The position numbers and the translations under genes are program-made. DNA of 40,323 nucleotides from a virus. The notes beneath the pieces were generated by a model. The model was not told the origin of the DNA. It saw nothing but the letters and a program-made list of their open reading frames with translations, and ran no database searches. How positions within the stretch are numbered: the stretch's first letter is position 1; each line of letters starts with the position of its first letter. This document shows, in pieces, positions 2,607-40,323 of this stretch. The stretch lies in IMG/VR virus record IMGVR_UViG_3300042545_000496, positions 1 to 40,323 of that record. One strand, given 5' to 3'.

Positions 2607-2846
2607 ATGCCACCAATTATTGGCGATTCGTTTCTAGTTGTGCTACGCTACTGGCGTGATGGAAAAACCATCCAGAAGCAGAGACTGACTAAATGCGAGA
2701 CTGAAGCCTATAAACTTGCCCGCAATGCCTCCGAATTTTGCATTACAGACGGTTTGGACTACTTCGTTGAGGTGTTGCCCAAGTTTGGCAAAACAGTGGC
2801 TCAGGGATCAAAATTGGGCCTCCAGAGACGAAAGGAACTATTCTAG
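2607..2846 (+). CDS. Small basic hypothetical protein
   Basis: A 79-residue, Lys/Arg-rich product starting two bases after the previous stop, with GAGGAAG upstream as ribosome site. It has strand-like segments (FLVVLRYW, YFVEVL) and a basic C-terminus (RRKELF). No family is recognised. Its stop TAG at 2844-2846 shares its last base with the GTG start of the sigma-like gene, suggesting coupled translation. Confidence 0.65.
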   Translation: MPPIIGDSFLVVLRYWRDGKTIQKQRLTKCETEAYKLARNASEFCITDGLDYFVEVLPKFGKTVAQGSKLGLQRRKELF

Positions 2847-3559
2847 TGGTTTCCCCATTTGCGATTGACGGGAGGATGACTGATGAAGGGCATAAGCTAT
2901 TTAATGAAAATATAAAACTAGCTAAGTTTTTCTCTAAAAAAGTCAAATGCCCAATTGGATTTGATGACGAGGACTGGTATCAGGAGGTTCTATCGTGTTT
3001 AGTTCAAACTATTTTGTACTACGATCCAGAGAAGGGGAAGTTGTCTACGCTCATGTTTCGTTTGGTTCTGCATAAACGATCATGGGTAATCAGTCAGGCC
3101 AAGAAGAATGCCCATGTATCGCTAAACCATATATCAGAAAAAACTGATGTACCAGTCTGCGATATGGTTGAGGATAAGAAAGCTATAGATCCGTCATTCA
3201 ATATAGAAAATAAGGATTCAATTGAAAATCTTGTGAGTAGGCTCAGTGGTAAAAGGAGAACTATATGTGATGGTATTTTAGCTGGTAAAACACTACAGCA
3301 GATTGGGAAAGGACTAGGGATAACCCGTGAAGCCGTTAGGCAAGCAATTAAGCGAATGAGCGATGAATACGCTTCTGATGAGCTTATTGCCCGCATTGGT
3401 CGTTGCATGGACTGTGGATGCGAATACAGTTGCAAGGTCAGTATGCTAAATCGCAATAGGAATCTGAGGTGTAAGGTGTGTAAGGCCCGGAACAAGTATT
3501 TAAAAAATAAATTGTTTCGTTGGCAAAACAAATTGCAGAAGGAGCAATCGAATGTATGA
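2846..3559 (+). CDS. Sigma-70-family factor with C-terminal zinc-ribbon
   Basis: A 237-residue protein with the layout of a small sigma factor. Residues ~20-82 look like region 2 (DEDWYQEVLSCL, then YDPEKGKLSTLMF, the usual 'YDP..G.FSTY' core motif). Residues ~125-172 look like region 4, with a helix-turn-helix (LQQIGKGLGITREAVRQAIKRM) that would read a -35 element. An added tail at ~187-212 has C-x2-C and C-x2-C pairs and is probably a zinc ribbon. It may redirect host RNA polymerase to phage promoters. The start is either the GTG at 2846 or the ATG at 2876; the latter has a GGGAGG too close for ideal spacing. It ends with an ATGA overlap onto the next gene. A second sigma-like gene follows at 3929. 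Confidence 0.8.
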   Translation: MVSPFAIDGRMTDEGHKLFNENIKLAKFFSKKVKCPIGFDDEDWYQEVLSCLVQTILYYDPEKGKLSTLMFRLVLHKRSWVISQAKKNAHVSLNHISEKTDVPVCDMVEDKKAIDPSFNIENKDSIENLVSRLSGKRRTICDGILAGKTLQQIGKGLGITREAVRQAIKRMSDEYASDELIARIGRCMDCGCEYSCKVSMLNRNRNLRCKVCKARNKYLKNKLFRWQNKLQKEQSNV

Positions 3560-3928: not shown

Positions 3929-4498
3929 ATGGCGAAGGTTGACGAGAATAGGACACGGACAGTCGAAGAACTCGTTAATGAGAATCTGGGTTTGATTGGA
4001 TTCTACATGGGTAGGTACCCAGCAATTAAGGGCTATACTTATGATGAGTATCAGTCTGAGCTACTGATAGCACTATGGAAAGCAGCTACCACATACGATG
4101 CAACTGGATGCAAGTTTTCTACCTATGCTGTTAGAGCATTTCATTTTTGCCGGATGACAATGCGTAGGGCAGTTATTCGCTCTAGCAAAGTTCGACCATG
4201 CTACAGTGATGATCCTTCGTCAGTGGTAGCACAAGCATCCTGTACAGATAGAACTGATTTAGAAGATTTAGAAGTATTACAATATAACAAGGAATTCCTT
4301 TTTAAGCTGATTAACATGATCGATGGCAAACGCCGGGAGATCATCCTCCGCCATCTGGATGGTCTATCACATGGCGAGATTGCTGAGGAGAGAGGAATTC
4401 AATATCACAATGTGACTGAACTGAAGCGGTTGGCTATAAAGAATATTCGTGAGGCTATTCAGGAATCAGGAATTGAATGGGAGTATCTATATGACTGA
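3929..4498 (+). CDS. Second sigma-70-family factor
   Basis: A 189-residue sigma-like protein. Residues ~12-80 carry region 2: an ENLGLI helix, then YDEYQSELLIALWKAA and YDATGCKFSTYAVRAF, which closely follow the core-binding and -10-melting motifs. Residues ~130-178 carry region 4 with a helix-turn-helix (SHGEIAEERGIQYHNVTELKRLA). No sigma region 1 or 3 is present, as in small alternative sigma factors. The ATG has the AGGAGATAGGAC ribosome site. It lacks the zinc tail of the 2846-3559 protein, so the two are distinct and not a simple recent duplication. A likely role is transcription of a later gene class. Confidence 0.8.
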   Translation: MAKVDENRTRTVEELVNENLGLIGFYMGRYPAIKGYTYDEYQSELLIALWKAATTYDATGCKFSTYAVRAFHFCRMTMRRAVIRSSKVRPCYSDDPSSVVAQASCTDRTDLEDLEVLQYNKEFLFKLINMIDGKRREIILRHLDGLSHGEIAEERGIQYHNVTELKRLAIKNIREAIQESGIEWEYLYD

Positions 4499-16043: not shown

Positions 16044-16949
16044 CTAGAGATTCCAATCGACATTGATTACATCTTTGGCTGGGAATCCAGACAGTCCAGA
16101 GAAGGCCCAAGAATCACCTTGGCTTAGCATTTTAGAGATAACTTCGGCATCAGCCCAGAATCCGCTAGTGGGTGGATCACCTTCACCTACTGGGCCAGTA
16201 TGGGCATTTGCGCCCCAACTATTTCTAATCCAGCCCTTTTCACTGCCTTCTGTGGAGTAGCCCCATAGAGACATTTGGTGCATCCAACGCCCTTTGGGCT
16301 GAGCTATCCCCTTGGCATCACGGGACATTGTAAAACCCTGATTAGATGCAACGCTAATCCCATAGCCTTGAGCTAATGCCTTCTTGGCATCTTCCCAAGT
16401 TTTTACTAGCGTAATTCCCTTTACTGGATGCTTTTTAACATCAGGTTCAAGGTCGTCTGGAACCCCGGTATTGCCCCATACACGGCATCGTTCTTCTTCG
16501 TATTTAGTAAGATCGTACTTGCCATAAATAGCTCGATCAATTGTTCCATACTTCATGGCAAATTCAGCTGCCCATGCGCCAATTGAACCATCGCCTCTGC
16601 CAAGCCTGCCCTTGCCAATTTCAATGCGTGAACCAGCATAAATGACTTCCTGACATAGCTGGCGAAATTCCTCTTTCTCTCCACGCATGATTTCATTGAC
16701 CATTGTTCCCTCAATGGCCGAAACTGCTCCAAAAGAAACGCAACTGCCAACTTTTAGTTGGTTATAAGGAATTGGCTTTTGCCCAGTAACCTTCTCATGG
16801 ACTTTCCAAAAGTAGCAGGTTTTAGGCAGCACAATATCCGCCTGCCCTGCTGGAGTGTCACCGAATACAGGCATAGGCTGGAGGTCAGCAATCGCTACAA
16901 CCTCTTCTGGCCGGTCTTCCCATCCCGGCTTGTAAAATTGGTCTTCCAT
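16044..16949 (-). CDS. Papain-like (C1-type) cysteine peptidase
   Basis: A 301-residue protein with a complete papain-type active site: Gln64 (oxyanion hole) exactly six residues before Cys70 in 'QLKVGSCVSFG', His224 in 'RWMHQMSLWGY', and Asn243 in 'RNSWG'. No signal peptide is seen; the N-terminal ~40 residues could be a short pro-region or linker. C1 peptidases are uncommon in phages. Position between a membrane-helix protein and a Pro-rich exported protein could mean a lysis or entry enzyme acting on host surface proteins, or processing of virion proteins. I cannot choose from sequence. Confidence 0.85.
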   Translation of the reverse strand: MEDQFYKPGWEDRPEEVVAIADLQPMPVFGDTPAGQADIVLPKTCYFWKVHEKVTGQKPIPYNQLKVGSCVSFGAVSAIEGTMVNEIMRGEKEEFRQLCQEVIYAGSRIEIGKGRLGRGDGSIGAWAAEFAMKYGTIDRAIYGKYDLTKYEEERCRVWGNTGVPDDLEPDVKKHPVKGITLVKTWEDAKKALAQGYGISVASNQGFTMSRDAKGIAQPKGRWMHQMSLWGYSTEGSEKGWIRNSWGANAHTGPVGEGDPPTSGFWADAEVISKMLSQGDSWAFSGLSGFPAKDVINVDWNL

Positions 16950-16953
16950 GTTA

Positions 16954-17670
16954 TTACCTCAATGATTCCACAAGATTAGCCATACGATCCAGCTGAGATG
17001 CAATCTTTGCCCTCAATTCTGCGCTCAGAATGACGGAAGGATCAATTGGGACCACAGACCTCAACTCCTCACTGATCCTCGATCTGAGCGAAGATAATGA
17101 TGAATCTGGCAATGTAGCCCTACCGATCTCCTTAGATCGTGCAAAAGCCTGTCCAACAGTTAAGAAGGCTGGATCTTTACAGACCTTGGCTGATTCCCGA
17201 TAGACTTGAGCTAGTTTGGCTTTGGATTGAACCTTGTTAGGCTCGTCTAGTGCGCCCCAAATAGCCTCCAATGCTTCTGATAAAGGATCAGTTGGAGAAG
17301 GGGTAGGATCAGGATCAGGAGGATTTGGGGCTGGAGGCTTAGGAGGGAATGGAGTTGGACCGGAATCTCCAATAATGATTTCAATTGATGCTGGATCACT
17401 TGGAATGTCGCCCAGTGCCGTATACCCATAGACAAGGTATTTACCCGGCAGATTGGCAGTTGCAACCGTTGCAGTTTTATCTGATAGAAGGTCAGCTGGA
17501 AATAGATTTAAGCCGGGTGACGGAGTGAAGTATTTGACTGATTTGCCGTCAATCTGAATAGGCTTGACAACAATGAACGATCCCGGCAGACCTTGCAATC
17601 TTGCTGGAAAAGTCAGCTTTGGTTGCTGATTCGCAATTAGAATTAACAGTCCAAGAGTGGTGGTAATCAT
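16954..17670 (-). CDS. Possibly exported protein with proline-rich linker
   Basis: A 238-residue product. The N-terminus (MITTTLGLLILIANQQPKL) is hydrophobic and signal-like. A beta-rich domain (~20-105) follows, then a Pro/Asp/Ser linker (~108-138), then a helical domain of ~100 residues. Bacterial surface proteins with such linkers are frequent in Planctomycetes. The ATG at 17670 has GAGGG upstream and overlaps the phosphoesterase stop; an in-frame ATG at 17694 is less likely. The role may be at the virion or host surface. Confidence 0.6.
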   Translation of the reverse strand: MITTTLGLLILIANQQPKLTFPARLQGLPGSFIVVKPIQIDGKSVKYFTPSPGLNLFPADLLSDKTATVATANLPGKYLVYGYTALGDIPSDPASIEIIIGDSGPTPFPPKPPAPNPPDPDPTPSPTDPLSEALEAIWGALDEPNKVQSKAKLAQVYRESAKVCKDPAFLTVGQAFARSKEIGRATLPDSSLSSLRSRISEELRSVVPIDPSVILSAELRAKIASQLDRMANLVESLR

Positions 17671-18518
17671 GTCTGATAAGCCCTCATATTGCAATCAGTC
17701 CCAACATCTGAATTCCGTAGATAGCGCAATTCAAGCCACCATCCACCCAGAGGCCTTGGCCCCCGTCCTTTTTCTGCGTGATACCCATCATCTTCAATCT
17801 TATAGGTCGAGCTACGAAGGAATAGCTGTTGCCTTGCACAAACTGTTCCTAAGTTGTTTAAATGATATACTATATTCTCATCTAAATTTCGTCTATGGAT
17901 ATGTCCAGATATAAATGCGTCTGCCATATACATACCTCTAGTTCTAGAGTTATCTATAAGGCCTCTTGTAATTTCTCCACCCCCACCTGCTCCGTGGTGA
18001 AAAAATAATGTTTTTGATATTCGATTCTTTGGATTTTCAATCATTCCGATCTGCACGAATCCCCAATACTTTCCAAGAAGTACAGAGGATTTATTGCGCT
18101 TTAGTCCTGATACAAACCGAGCGCAGACATCCGTATCATGGTATTTTTCCCATGAGGTTTCATGGTTGCCCTTTGAGACAAGGGCTAGAACATCCCTGTA
18201 AGGTGTAAACCAGTCGATTGCATCATCAATTACTGTGTCAATGTAATTGTCTGTTTGGTGTTCTGGTCGAAGAGATTTGGCTGATTTACGCTTATCGAAT
18301 TTGCCCTGCATAATATCAAAAGTATCGCCAACCAGAATGACGGGGGTTCCTGTTTTTAACGCTTCGTCTAGATCCCTCTTGAGCAGTTCTCGGTTACATT
18401 GAGCAGAGTCCCAATGTAGATCGGATAGGAGCATGACACGCCGCCAATCTTTGTCCTTTACATTTGAAAAGTCTAAGCGGTAGGCATGAGGATCAGTTTG
18501 ACGGATTGACCAATCCAT
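17667..18518 (-). CDS. Calcineurin-like metallophosphoesterase
   Basis: A 283-residue enzyme with the full metal-binding signature of the family: 'LLSDLHWD' (D-x-H), 'LVGDTFD' (G-D), 'SKGNHE' (G-N-H-E), 'LFFHHG' and 'SGHIHR' (G-H-x-H). Family members cleave phosphomono- or diesters in nucleotides, nucleic acids or other substrates using two metals. In phages they appear in late regions with unknown substrate. The start at 18518 has GGAGAG in front; in-frame ATGs at 18563 and 18575 are possible but lie inside a candidate small gene. Confidence 0.88.
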   Translation of the reverse strand: MDWSIRQTDPHAYRLDFSNVKDKDWRRVMLLSDLHWDSAQCNRELLKRDLDEALKTGTPVILVGDTFDIMQGKFDKRKSAKSLRPEHQTDNYIDTVIDDAIDWFTPYRDVLALVSKGNHETSWEKYHDTDVCARFVSGLKRNKSSVLLGKYWGFVQIGMIENPKNRISKTLFFHHGAGGGGEITRGLIDNSRTRGMYMADAFISGHIHRRNLDENIVYHLNNLGTVCARQQLFLRSSTYKIEDDGYHAEKGRGPRPLGGWWLELRYLRNSDVGTDCNMRAYQT

Positions 18519-18618
18519 TAGACTCTCCAGTAAGAGAAAGGATAACCGGGGCAACCACTCCATGACGCTGTTCATCTTCTGGAGTGGTATAAGGCGTGTC
18601 AGGAAACAGCAAAAACAA
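18493..18618 (-). CDS. Possible small protein starting at TTG
   Basis: The 129-base gap between the phosphoesterase and the next gene holds one frame with protein-like composition. It runs from a TTG at 18618 (41 codons), with a G-rich GGGGCAGGGCGGGG just upstream, to TGA at 18493-18495. The product has a hydrophobic start, then 'PDTPYTTPEDEQRHG' and 'VVAPVILSLTGES'. The same frame is open further upstream into the 18648-18782 gene but lacks ATG or GTG. It may be a true small gene with an unusual start, or a decayed gene end. Confidence 0.35.
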   Translation of the reverse strand: MFLLFPDTPYTTPEDEQRHGVVAPVILSLTGESNGLVNPSN

Positions 18619-19083: not shown

Positions 19084-19980
19084 TCAGTTAATTGGTAGGA
19101 CATTTTTTGCTGCATTGACCGAATTAACGGCATATGCCCTTGGTGTTGCAGTAATGATCGAATAGACCCTTCCTCTTGCCCAAGATGGTGGATTTATTGC
19201 TTCTGCTGATCCATTTAAAGACGTTATGACAATCGAAACAAATTCAGTAGAGGCTACAGCTGATCCAAAAGCCGATCCTGCAACAGGCTGGATTGTTATT
19301 GAGCCGATTGATCCAGATGTTGTAGCCGATCCAGAACCAGAACCATTTTGCTTTACGATTACGATTGAATTACTTAAACCAGATGCTAGAGCAGAACCAG
19401 TCGCCGTTCCACTCTGGACAGTTGATATTGTGATCGTATTGGACAATCCTGAAGCAGAAGCACTTCCAGACCCTGATCCTAATTGCTTAGAAATAACAAG
19501 GTTATTTGATGCACCGGAAGCAGTTGCCGTACCAGTAGCAGAACCAAGCTGCTTGGATATTACGATGGAATTTGATTGACCAGATGCTCCACCGCTCCCA
19601 GTAGCTGAGCCTAATTGCTTGGAAATAATCAGAGTGTTGGACTGTCCGGAAACAAAAGAAGATCCTGATCCAGAGCCGGATAGTTTTGAAATTACAACGC
19701 TATTAGACTGACCAGATGCTAGTGCCGTTCCTGTCGCTGATCCTAACTGCTTGGAGATCGTCAGGCTGTTGGACAATCCAGATGCAGACGAGGAACCAAT
19801 TGACGATCCAGACAGGGGAGAGATTACGATTGATCGGGATATTCCTGAAGCGGAAGCAGTACCAGTTGCCGTTCCACTCTGGGTAGTAAATACTATTGAT
19901 ACGAATGATCCACTAGCTGATGCGGTGAAGAATCCACCGTAGCTTATTGGTGCGTCAGCTAATGGATAACCGCCAAACAT
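19084..19980 (-). CDS. Gly/Ser/Ala-rich repeat protein, probable tail appendage
   Basis: A 298-residue product. After a short start (MFGGYPLADAPIS, typical of small tail-appendage proteins) it is built from about ten copies of a ~22-residue unit of the form G-S-A-T-G-T-A-x-A-S-G-x-S-N-S-I-V-I-S-K-Q-L. The pattern suggests a repetitive beta structure such as a fibrous shaft or adhesin rod. A ~60-residue non-repetitive C-terminus follows. The start at 19980 lies one base after the upstream stop; a longer in-frame ATG at 20034 overlaps the upstream gene. Copy number could vary between relatives. Confidence 0.65.
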   Translation of the reverse strand: MFGGYPLADAPISYGGFFTASASGSFVSIVFTTQSGTATGTASASGISRSIVISPLSGSSIGSSSASGLSNSLTISKQLGSATGTALASGQSNSVVISKLSGSGSGSSFVSGQSNTLIISKQLGSATGSGGASGQSNSIVISKQLGSATGTATASGASNNLVISKQLGSGSGSASASGLSNTITISTVQSGTATGSALASGLSNSIVIVKQNGSGSGSATTSGSIGSITIQPVAGSAFGSAVASTEFVSIVITSLNGSAEAINPPSWARGRVYSIITATPRAYAVNSVNAAKNVLPIN

Positions 19981-19981
19981 A

Positions 19982-20317
19982 TTAGGCCCAACGCTGCTGC
20001 GGTTGAGTAGGATCGCTTGGATTACGCTCAACAATAAACGGCTGGATTTCTGGTGGAATAACCATGTCTACTAGAGAACGCACCATTACCCAGTACTGAT
20101 TATCTGCTACCAGATTGGGAACCTGTTCACCGTTCGGTCCTTCGCTTGTCGTTCCATCTGGATAGTAATGCACCCCTATTACGCAGATGGCTAGCGTGAG
20201 AGTAGCTTGAGTGGTTTGAAACTCACCCGTTTCAGGATCACGGGTAGTGTAGCCAAGCTGCTCACCGATTAGCCCCGCTTGCTCTTGCGATTGGAACTTT
20301 AGAAGTAGGTCAATCAT
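19982..20317 (-). CDS. Small tail protein downstream of the fibre gene
   Basis: A 111-residue product whose ATG overlaps the fibre gene's TAA/TGA region (20314-20317). It begins 'MIDLLLKFQSQEQAGLIGEQLGY' and has 'VIGVHYYPDGTT...NLVADNQYWVMVRS'. This is the layout of small phage proteins encoded right after tail fibres, sometimes called fibre assembly or tail-associated proteins. The exact function is not known. Confidence 0.6.
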   Translation of the reverse strand: MIDLLLKFQSQEQAGLIGEQLGYTTRDPETGEFQTTQATLTLAICVIGVHYYPDGTTSEGPNGEQVPNLVADNQYWVMVRSLVDMVIPPEIQPFIVERNPSDPTQPQQRWA

Positions 20318-38176: not shown

Positions 38177-39259
38177 TCAAGGCTTGAATATGATATTTTT
38201 TGCTTTTTTAATTCTTCCTGCCCTTTTTTGCGGAGATTCTGATTTTATTTCATCTAAATCTAGTAACATTCCAGAATCTGGGTCAAGCAGATGCCACCAC
38301 TGGAGCGTTTCGCCCTTCTTTAAACGCTTTGAAGCCATCTGATGCCGTTTAATCCCGATTGCCAATACCTGCTTATCTTTTGTACTTGACCCAAACCATT
38401 GGCTAAAAGTTTTGGCATCTGGAATAATTCTGCCCTTGAAATCATAAAATTTGGTTGGTTCCATATTCAAGATTGGCGTTAGCCAGCACCTGCAATTGAA
38501 TGCAGTTGATCCATCCGCCTCAAGCGGAGGATTTGGCATCTGGTCAAAACCAAGGTTGTCATAGCGAGGATTCTTGTAATAAACCGTCTTATCTCGTTCA
38601 CGATGTGCTGGTCTTGTCTTACTGTCCAGAATGGCATGGATTTGAAAACCCACTAATTCCTTGGGCAATGCCGAATATGTATTTCGTGCAACTTGGCCCA
38701 TCATTGAACTAATTGCCGTCCGGGCAATCATATAGGCATTATTCCGCATAGTTTGGAAATACTGGGTGACCATTGCAGAACGGATTAGCGGATCTTTTTG
38801 GATTGCCACCAGTTGCGCTACGGCAGTTGGATTCATCCGGGTACGAGACATTTTTTGCATAATTCGCTGAGGAATGTTTCTGTTGCGAATTATTTCAAGG
38901 ATTAAATTCTTCGGAATGCCGGGAAAAATATCACGGGCAATTGTGCGCTTTGACTCCTGTAAATCTTTCCCTGCAAGGAGGTCCGCCATAATTGAATTGA
39001 GCCGTCTTGAATGGTCCTCAAGTATTTTTGGGCATAATCTGTTTACCAGACTGTTAATTTCCAGATAGATACATTCCAAATTGAAATGGATTGAAGTGTA
39101 GTCGTTAAGATCTTTGGCATTTGTTGCCAATTTTTGCCGTTGAGATATTAGTCCAAGCAGTTTCCTTGAAGCAATATCTGCGTCATGTAGTGCTTCTATC
39201 TGCTCAATCCCAACTTTTGCAGCTAAGAGTTCGTTAAATCGCCTAGTTGCTGCTTCCAT
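38177..39259 (-). CDS. Phage Mu F-like minor head protein
   Basis: A 360-residue protein of the Mu F / SPP1 gp7 family, which attaches to the portal and may be ejected with DNA. The C-terminal half has the hallmark 'ARTAISSMMGQVARNTY', 'HAILDSKTRPAHRERDKTVYY' and 'EADGSTAFNCRCWLTPIL' (the final C-x-C-W motif). The N-terminal ~150 residues are helical. The ATG has GAGGATGATTCG in front and overlaps the upstream gene by 37 bases. Portal and terminase should lie further right. Confidence 0.85.
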   Translation of the reverse strand: MEAATRRFNELLAAKVGIEQIEALHDADIASRKLLGLISQRQKLATNAKDLNDYTSIHFNLECIYLEINSLVNRLCPKILEDHSRRLNSIMADLLAGKDLQESKRTIARDIFPGIPKNLILEIIRNRNIPQRIMQKMSRTRMNPTAVAQLVAIQKDPLIRSAMVTQYFQTMRNNAYMIARTAISSMMGQVARNTYSALPKELVGFQIHAILDSKTRPAHRERDKTVYYKNPRYDNLGFDQMPNPPLEADGSTAFNCRCWLTPILNMEPTKFYDFKGRIIPDAKTFSQWFGSSTKDKQVLAIGIKRHQMASKRLKKGETLQWWHLLDPDSGMLLDLDEIKSESPQKRAGRIKKAKNIIFKP

Positions 39260-40323
39260 CGAATCATCCTCTTTGGTGGAGGCATAGTTTCCCGGTTTTC
39301 GTTATGTCTTGCCGGAAAAGCGAAAAAGTTTTGAAGAGTGTACTCTACCAAATTTGGGTCTGGTTCAGCTGCCAATATTTTGCAATGGTGGCTGGATAGG
39401 GCAATTCGTGTAATTAGTCCAGTGTTTGAACATGGGATAATTAGAAATGGAACAGTTTTTTCTTGTGCTGATGCGTGTCTCTTAGTTTTGGCAATAAGTT
39501 TTTCTAATGCAAATCTATGAACTCTTGCACCATTGACCGGAGGAGGGAATGCTTCGACATTCGCTGTTAGATGCCTTCCTCTTTCCCTGTCAGTTTCCTC
39601 ATTGAAATGATTCTTCATATGGGAAATAGGTTCAGATTTATTCTTATGGTGAAATGTCGTTATTTGCGAAAAATCACCATTGGAAAATGTATATAGCCCC
39701 TTGACACTGTTACTGTCCAGCAGAGAGGCGAGAAGAGTCGGATCGTTATTTGTAAATGTCCAACCTTCGTCTAATTCAATTAGGTTGGATAGAAAATCAA
39801 ATGCACCATATTCCGCAGTTGTCGCCCTTGGAGCGTTTAACATAACTTTGTAGTATGTTCGGGACTTTGCGCCAAAATTCGCCATCTCAATAAACATATC
39901 TGTGAAAATCTTGTCCTTATAACTACCGCAGTAGATATAAGATCCATCCCTAATTTTCCACAGTTCTCCCGGCTTAACTCCAAGTAGTTCTTCGCCACTC
40001 TTTATCCGCTCTCGCCTTGCCTTATCTTCCTTTTGCTCCTTTTCCTTTAATTCGTTTTCCTCCTCCTCTTTTTTCCTTTGTTTCTCTTCGTCTTCCTCAA
40101 AAATATTTCCTGATGAACTCATTTCACCGAATACATCACCAATATCACTGGTGAATGAATCCATCAGATCATTTAAAATCTTCTCGTCGATTCTCGCCAT
40201 TGATCCGATGGCATCATACGAGGCGAGAATCTTGTTCCCCTCAGCCTCATTCACATCAAGAATTAAGACTGGAATTTCGGCATCGCCACACTCAGCTGCC
40301 CGCATATGCCCATCAATCAGGAT
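39223..40323 (-). CDS. ParB-domain protein with degenerate DNA methyltransferase domain (5' end cut by the window edge)
   Basis: The frame is open from the window edge to 39223. At the right edge 'ILIDGHMRAAE' continuing into 'IPVLILDVNEAEGNKILASYDAIGS' is a ParB-type N-terminal domain. A very acidic Lys/Glu coiled coil follows, then 'VKPGELWKIRDGSYIYCGSYKD', the usual link from ParB to the DNA methyltransferase in phage ParB-MTase fusions ('PGDLW.LG.HRL.CGD'). The next strand should carry DPPY but has NAPR (39837-39826). Near the end 'PCSNTGL' and 'EPDPNLVEY' (39340-39366) match the SAM-site and the E-x-DP..Y segment. The enzyme is likely inactive as a methylase and may bind DNA or SAM only. 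An in-frame ATG exists at 40305, but the domain begins further right. Confidence 0.65.
   Translation of the reverse strand: MLIDGHMRAAECGDAEIPVLILDVNEAEGNKILASYDAIGSMARIDEKILNDLMDSFTSDIGDVFGEMSSSGNIFEEDEEKQRKKEEEENELKEKEQKEDKARRERIKSGEELLGVKPGELWKIRDGSYIYCGSYKDKIFTDMFIEMANFGAKSRTYYKVMLNAPRATTAEYGAFDFLSNLIELDEGWTFTNNDPTLLASLLDSNSVKGLYTFSNGDFSQITTFHHKNKSEPISHMKNHFNEETDRERGRHLTANVEAFPPPVNGARVHRFALEKLIAKTKRHASAQEKTVPFLIIPCSNTGLITRIALSSHHCKILAAEPDPNLVEYTLQNFFAFPARHNENRETMPPPKRMIRWKQQLGDLTNS

Follow-up and report, generated by a model that had tools for sequence, protein, structure and literature searches.

A phage ParB-type protein with a conserved and probably non-methylating methylase-like half

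The window analyzed here, a single stretch of viral DNA of 40,323 bases (IMG/VR virus record IMGVR_UViG_3300042545_000496, positions 1 to 40,323), ends in a minus-strand open reading frame whose open 5' end is cut by the window edge (Table 1). The whole protein, of 424 aa, was read from a relative (L002) that differs from the window by 1 residue over the shared part. Full-length proteins of this kind fall into two clades: clade A (L002, L003, L004, L006, L029 and others), with 424 aa and 96-100% identity, and clade B (L010, L020, L021, L025, L027), with about 407 aa and 60% identity to clade A. Common to both is a layout of ParB/sulfiredoxin domain, acidic coiled coil, PGELW...YIYCGS hairpin and C-terminal part. 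Two viral scans, 84,980 bacterial and archaeal genomes, and a tblastn search of phage records yielded relatives with the C-terminal part in these two clades only, and no description of a ParB pseudo-methylase was found in the open literature searched, which does not prove its absence. Elsewhere in the window, a papain-family cysteine protease (16047-16949, minus strand; PF00112, E 6.3e-7) is followed by a metallophosphoesterase (17670-18575); two nearby sigma-70-like proteins lie at 2846-3556 and 3929-4495 on the plus strand (PF04545; PF04542 and PF08281), and a Ser/Gly-rich repeat protein of the type SGLSNSxxISKxxGSGSGSA, with no Pfam match, lies at 19087-20034 on the minus strand.

Table 1. 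Features of the ParB/pseudo-methyltransferase locus, in window coordinates.
Feature	Position	Strand	Basis or remark
ParB/pseudo-methyltransferase gene	39223..40323	-	366 codons plus stop in window; the 58 before them lie beyond it
ParB/sulfiredoxin domain, in-window part (full-length residues about 59-122)	40132..40323	-	Foldseek, PHROG 498 and 620, invariant pocket residues
DGHMR nucleotide-pocket motif	40300-40314	-	sequence
Acidic/charged coiled-coil linker (full-length residues about 135-167)	39997..40095	-	translation; predicted helix 135-166 / 137-167
PGELWKI..SYIYCGSYKD hairpin opening the putative methylase domain	39913..39972	-	profile of intact ParB-methylases
PGELW	39958-39972	-	hairpin motif
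YIYCG	39925-39939	-	hairpin motif
NAPRA at the putative DPPY (motif IV) place	39823..39837	-	position in domain; NAPR itself 39826-39837
PCSNTGL, putative eroded SAM motif I	39415..39435	-	column-wise I-P-C-S-N-T-G vs D-P-F/C-G-G-S-G
EPDP, putative motif II, E and DP kept	39355..39366	-	alignment of 56 sequences
MuF-like minor head protein, downstream	38177..39259	-	PF04233 E 2.5e-5 (below Pfam cut-off); PHROG 595/241/115 head proteins

The gene order in clades A and B is TerS, TerL, portal, ParB/pseudo-methylase, MuF, protease/scaffold-like protein, small head protein, and major capsid candidate, some of these neighbors being named by position alone. In the window, the last 37 bases of the pseudo-methylase gene also form the start of MuF. 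A portal search recovered a third, sister clade (L136-L141), with portals 71-74% identical, in which the gene is absent between portal and MuF and the MuF start lies inside the portal end; nor was it found elsewhere in the sister-clade contigs, which are short fragments. Because this clade lacks it between portal and MuF, the gene is an accessory one, and head assembly does not need it. The gene is thus not found at the same place in all close relatives, as a core head or packaging gene would be. Intact phage ParB-methylases likewise lie near TerS/TerL/portal in 16 of the 19 loci with 4 kb present on both sides, and given this habit and the sister clade, a general head or packaging role, the latter suggested from the sequence alone, is not supported.

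Other variation was seen in this region. In L006 (1906-4467) and G002 (L123:1011-3560), the portal ORF runs on for about 140 further aa (853 and 849 in all, vs 711), and HNH-like small ORFs, recognized by eye, sit at differing junctions of the terminase-portal-ParB region (L010:5369-5824; L138:1313-1756; L140:1620-2063; L139:2678-3121). The large terminase L008:1289-3487 has an intein-splicing domain (PF14890) at its P-loop, and the terminase L139:315-2681 has extra length similar to that of intein-bearing L008.

The ParB/sulfiredoxin domain spans residues 1-122 of the full-length protein and was modeled at a pLDDT of about 80-94. Foldseek with the full-length model retrieved ParB-CDP (6sdk, E 1.1e-5), as well as Noc and sulfiredoxin; within the pocket motif, G63, H64, and R66 do not vary among 56 proteins, whether pseudo or intact. 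This ParB/Srx fold with its GxHR-type nucleotide-pocket motif places the protein in the ParB/sulfiredoxin superfamily. Its best match, PHROG 498 (the ParB-methylase family; E 1.6e-13 and 5e-15), covers ParB and linker, PHROG 620 being matched as well, and the order of ParB, linker, and hairpin is that of the phage ParB-methyltransferases. When full proteins were compared profile to profile, ParB alone aligned. A clade B match to PHROG 14061 was dropped as weak, lying mostly over the charged linker, and found also in Methanosarcina. ParB/Srx domains are reported to be NTP-regulated, sequence-nonspecific nicking enzymes or NTPases, and the ParB half of a Bacillus cereus ParB-methylase is reported to be one such nicking domain (PMC5512222).

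After the coiled coil comes KPGELWKI-RDGSYIYCGSYKD, and then about 230 residues in which YYKVML-NAPRA, GWTF-TNNDP, GLYT-SNGD, FLII-PCSNTGL, and KILAA-EPDP follow in that order. All 62 phage ParB-methylases sampled for comparison carry a [DNS]PP[YFW] tetrapeptide. In contrast, NAPRA, along with NTGL and AAEPDP, is present in 18 of 18 loci reaching these elements (14 distinct proteins, both clades), which agrees with the loss of the catalytic tetrapeptide asserted in the sequence-only reading; a complete DPPY or NPPY in another place was sought, and [DNS]PP[YFW] occurs nowhere in the protein in any of these 18 loci. Column by column, motif I of the intact enzymes, D-P-[FC]-x-G-S-G, corresponds to I-P-[CS]-x-N-T-G, so the SAM motif is indeed weakened, as had been suspected, and does not fit the pattern D-x-[FC]-x-G-x-G. 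Eight of the 62 intact enzymes also lack the strict D.F.G.G pattern, with close variants such as DLCAGSGT instead. In motif II, E378 is invariant and D380 and P381 are nearly so (56 sequences). Compared with intact enzymes, the loop that follows the tetrapeptide lacks about 20 residues, and there is no HPTMKP segment.

NAPR is placed on DPPY by its position: it follows the strand YKVML, downstream of the hairpin and ahead of the next strand, GWTFT; MAFFT itself did not align the two. NNDP was rejected as the true tetrapeptide place: about 39 extra residues would be needed before it, and GWTFTNND corresponds better to the strand and loop that come next in intact enzymes (GGAIYIAHADS), judged by eye from consensus lines. 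In this enzyme class, the aromatic residue of the tetrapeptide stacks on the flipped base. Since the losses include both this residue and the acid of motif I, it is improbable that the C-terminal part methylates. The two clades share the altered motifs unchanged although their proteins are only 60% identical, so these motifs are neither sequencing error nor fresh decay.

Whether the C-terminal half descends from a methylase was judged against the same 62 proteins. The hairpin PGELWKI...YIYCGSYKD, at its proper place, reached a score against the intact profile that 0 of 1000 shuffles attained; with the PHROG 498 match, this bears out the ParB-methylase domain order first read from the sequence. 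When allowed to slide along the final third of that profile, the motif I-II block landed on the true motif I-II, at a score that 7 of 150 shuffles also attained (p about 0.05). Alignment of the whole domain to the profile of intact methylases was not significant (z 0.4-2.3), an HMM of the intact methylase domain scored the C-terminal part no higher than shuffled sequence, and Pfam and NCBIfam searches left this part unmatched, PF01555 included, whereas the intact L033 protein matches PF01555 at 9e-27. AlphaFold with the family alone gave low confidence (pLDDT 37.5); with intact ParB-methylases added, in an alignment whose DPPY region was misplaced by MAFFT, ParB alone was well modeled and the C-terminal part ranged mostly from 30 to 78. 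The sole methylase among the PDB matches shown was 2zig (probability 0.20), from the low-confidence C-terminal model. The strand and helix order predicted in the likewise low-confidence family-only model follows the generally known order of the beta-class amino-methyltransferases. Structure prediction and alignment with the ParB-methylases, then, were confident for ParB and weak for the C-terminal half; a retained methylase fold, as previously supposed, is likely, although the intact-domain profile finds no match. We consider it likely that the C-terminal half descended from a methylase.

ParB is the more strongly conserved half, with a within-clade dN/dS of 0.00-0.05, compared with 0.03-0.11 in the C-terminal part; the portal, MuF, and capsid genes of these phages show values in the same range. 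Being well below 1, the ratios support the supposed retention of the protein, by selection; between clades, dN/dS is only rough, since synonymous sites are near saturation. The predicted strands are rich in residues invariant in both clades at their C-terminal tips (NAPR, TNND, SNGD, NTGL, EPDP): 19 of 25 there, compared with 9 of 25 on the opposite edges (p 0.0096) and 88 of 214 elsewhere (p 0.0012). Among 238 circular shifts, 5 equaled this clustering, which depends on strand ends taken from the low-confidence model and on two clades only. In methyltransferases, the C-terminal strand tips form the ligand face. If the strand ends are right, this face would be conserved, which counts against an idle remnant. 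The between-clade dN of MuF (0.44) is close to that of the C-terminal part of its neighbor (0.43), the values for portal (0.14) and capsid (0.09) being far lower; MuF and the pseudo-methylase C-terminal part could possibly form a joint module or interact.

With the intact phage ParB-methyltransferases (PHROG 498; e.g., L033:5950-7356, 469 aa, and the B. cereus enzyme, PMC5512222), the present protein shares the ParB domain, acidic linker, PG(D/E)xW...CG hairpin, C-terminal motif I-II, and a place near packaging genes, but these carry DPPY and D-x-[FC]-x-G-S-G, and are longer after the tetrapeptide. A protein of the Stenotrophomonas/Xanthomonas phages StM171, Suso, HXX_Dennis, and QH16 (249/243 aa) has likewise kept ParB with no DPPY and no GxG. 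It consists of ParB, a hairpin (LGQHRLLCGD), and a C-terminal stub resembling the last segment of the methylase domain, and is annotated in StM171 (L017:4968-5714) and QH16 (L164:4501-5229) as a DNA methylase or putative sulfiredoxin. The StM171-type gene lies ahead of the terminase gene. Its methylase, however, has shrunk to about 85 aa under weaker constraint (C-terminal dN/dS 0.53); its different make-up indicates a separate origin. In other phages (L153, L154, L155, L162), ParB stands alone with no methylase attached, and from these and the StM171-type proteins it seems that ParB-methylases have been reduced more than once. Javan476 was rejected as a further reduced protein, being a split but otherwise intact methylase.

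Methylase relatives without catalysis are known in other settings. METTL14, which pairs with active METTL3, is conserved with a non-catalytic tetrapeptide (EPPL; PMC5023411), as here, but belongs to a different family, and these phage genomes show no active partner of the DPPY type. Among nine records of the group and its surroundings, PF01555 matched in the intact control G006 only, and neither the window nor its 50.5-kb and 45.3-kb relatives contain a methylase-like [DNS]PP[YFW]; these searches, which cover methylases of the PF01555 and [DNS]PP[YFW] type, thus reveal no partner enzyme of the same class. In DndH, an inactive Dam domain, similarly eroded in its SAM loop and [SDN]PP[FYW], has been proposed to block sites from methylation (PMC10853773), but DndH acts in host defence and carries HerA/FtsK ATPase and nuclease domains, whereas the present protein has ParB. 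In phage P1 and others, DdrB-like ParB domains likewise put ParB/Srx in late phage genes adjoining virion genes, but they are described as a ParB family of their own, fused to other partners (PMC5512222).

The best reading is that a ParB-type protein with a conserved, non-methylating methylase half is a variant of the known phage ParB-methylases. Its domain order, motif loss, conservation, and optional presence are observed; the explanation we favor, as somewhat probable, is descent from a phage ParB-methyltransferase to a protein that no longer methylates but keeps ParB activity and a binding domain. The same invariant residues on the predicted ligand face could instead mean that the methylase pocket has been re-tooled, the NAPR, TNND, SNGD, NTGL, and EPDP loops forming a new ligand or reaction site coupled to the ParB NTPase/nuclease; with strand ends drawn from a low-confidence model and only two clades, we rate this as unlikely. 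It is rather improbable that the C-terminal half is an unrelated domain fused to ParB, with its motif likeness partly due to chance: although the database and HMM searches and the marginal motif I-II match would permit this, the hairpin block stands at the right place far beyond chance, the match of P0002 to PHROG 498 extends across ParB and linker as far as profile position 199, and the predicted order of elements fits methyltransferases.

That the protein still methylates, by way of an unusual catalytic motif, could be argued from the kept E378, from the last G of motif I, and from the N and P of NAPR, which occupy places permitted by (D/N/S)PP(Y/F/W). With the base-stacking aromatic replaced by R, the first P by A, the motif I acid by I, and the first G of motif I by N, and with the roughly 20 residues after the tetrapeptide and HPTMKP missing, such an enzyme is very unlikely. 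A decaying pseudogene would account for the lost catalytic motifs and for the sister clade's want of the gene at this place, but is contradicted by the low dN/dS, by the intact ORF, and by identical altered motifs in every locus reaching them, and we give it hardly any weight.

Under the favored descent from a ParB-methyltransferase, the ParB half, with its kept DGH-R, would probably still bind or hydrolyse NTP and nick or clamp DNA, by analogy with biochemically studied ParB domains. The methylase half, without tetrapeptide, following loop, and SAM-loop acid, would not methylate but would be kept as a folded domain that may bind DNA, a partner, or a small ligand. We infer this ancestry, fold, and activity, as well as the timing: the gene, though optional, would be expressed late in infection, together with the head genes. 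The simplest model has ParB acting on phage or host DNA at that stage, with the ex-methylase as a binding domain. Another possibility, as proposed for the DndH Dam domain, is that sites are shielded against methylation or restriction by the host.

Phages widely carry ParB-methylases beside their packaging genes, and natural non-methylating versions separate the two halves of these proteins. That selection has kept this protein despite the loss of methylation points to a job apart from methylation and offers ready test material, and a second phage group with an independent reduction of its ParB-methylase suggests that this path is a recurrent one.
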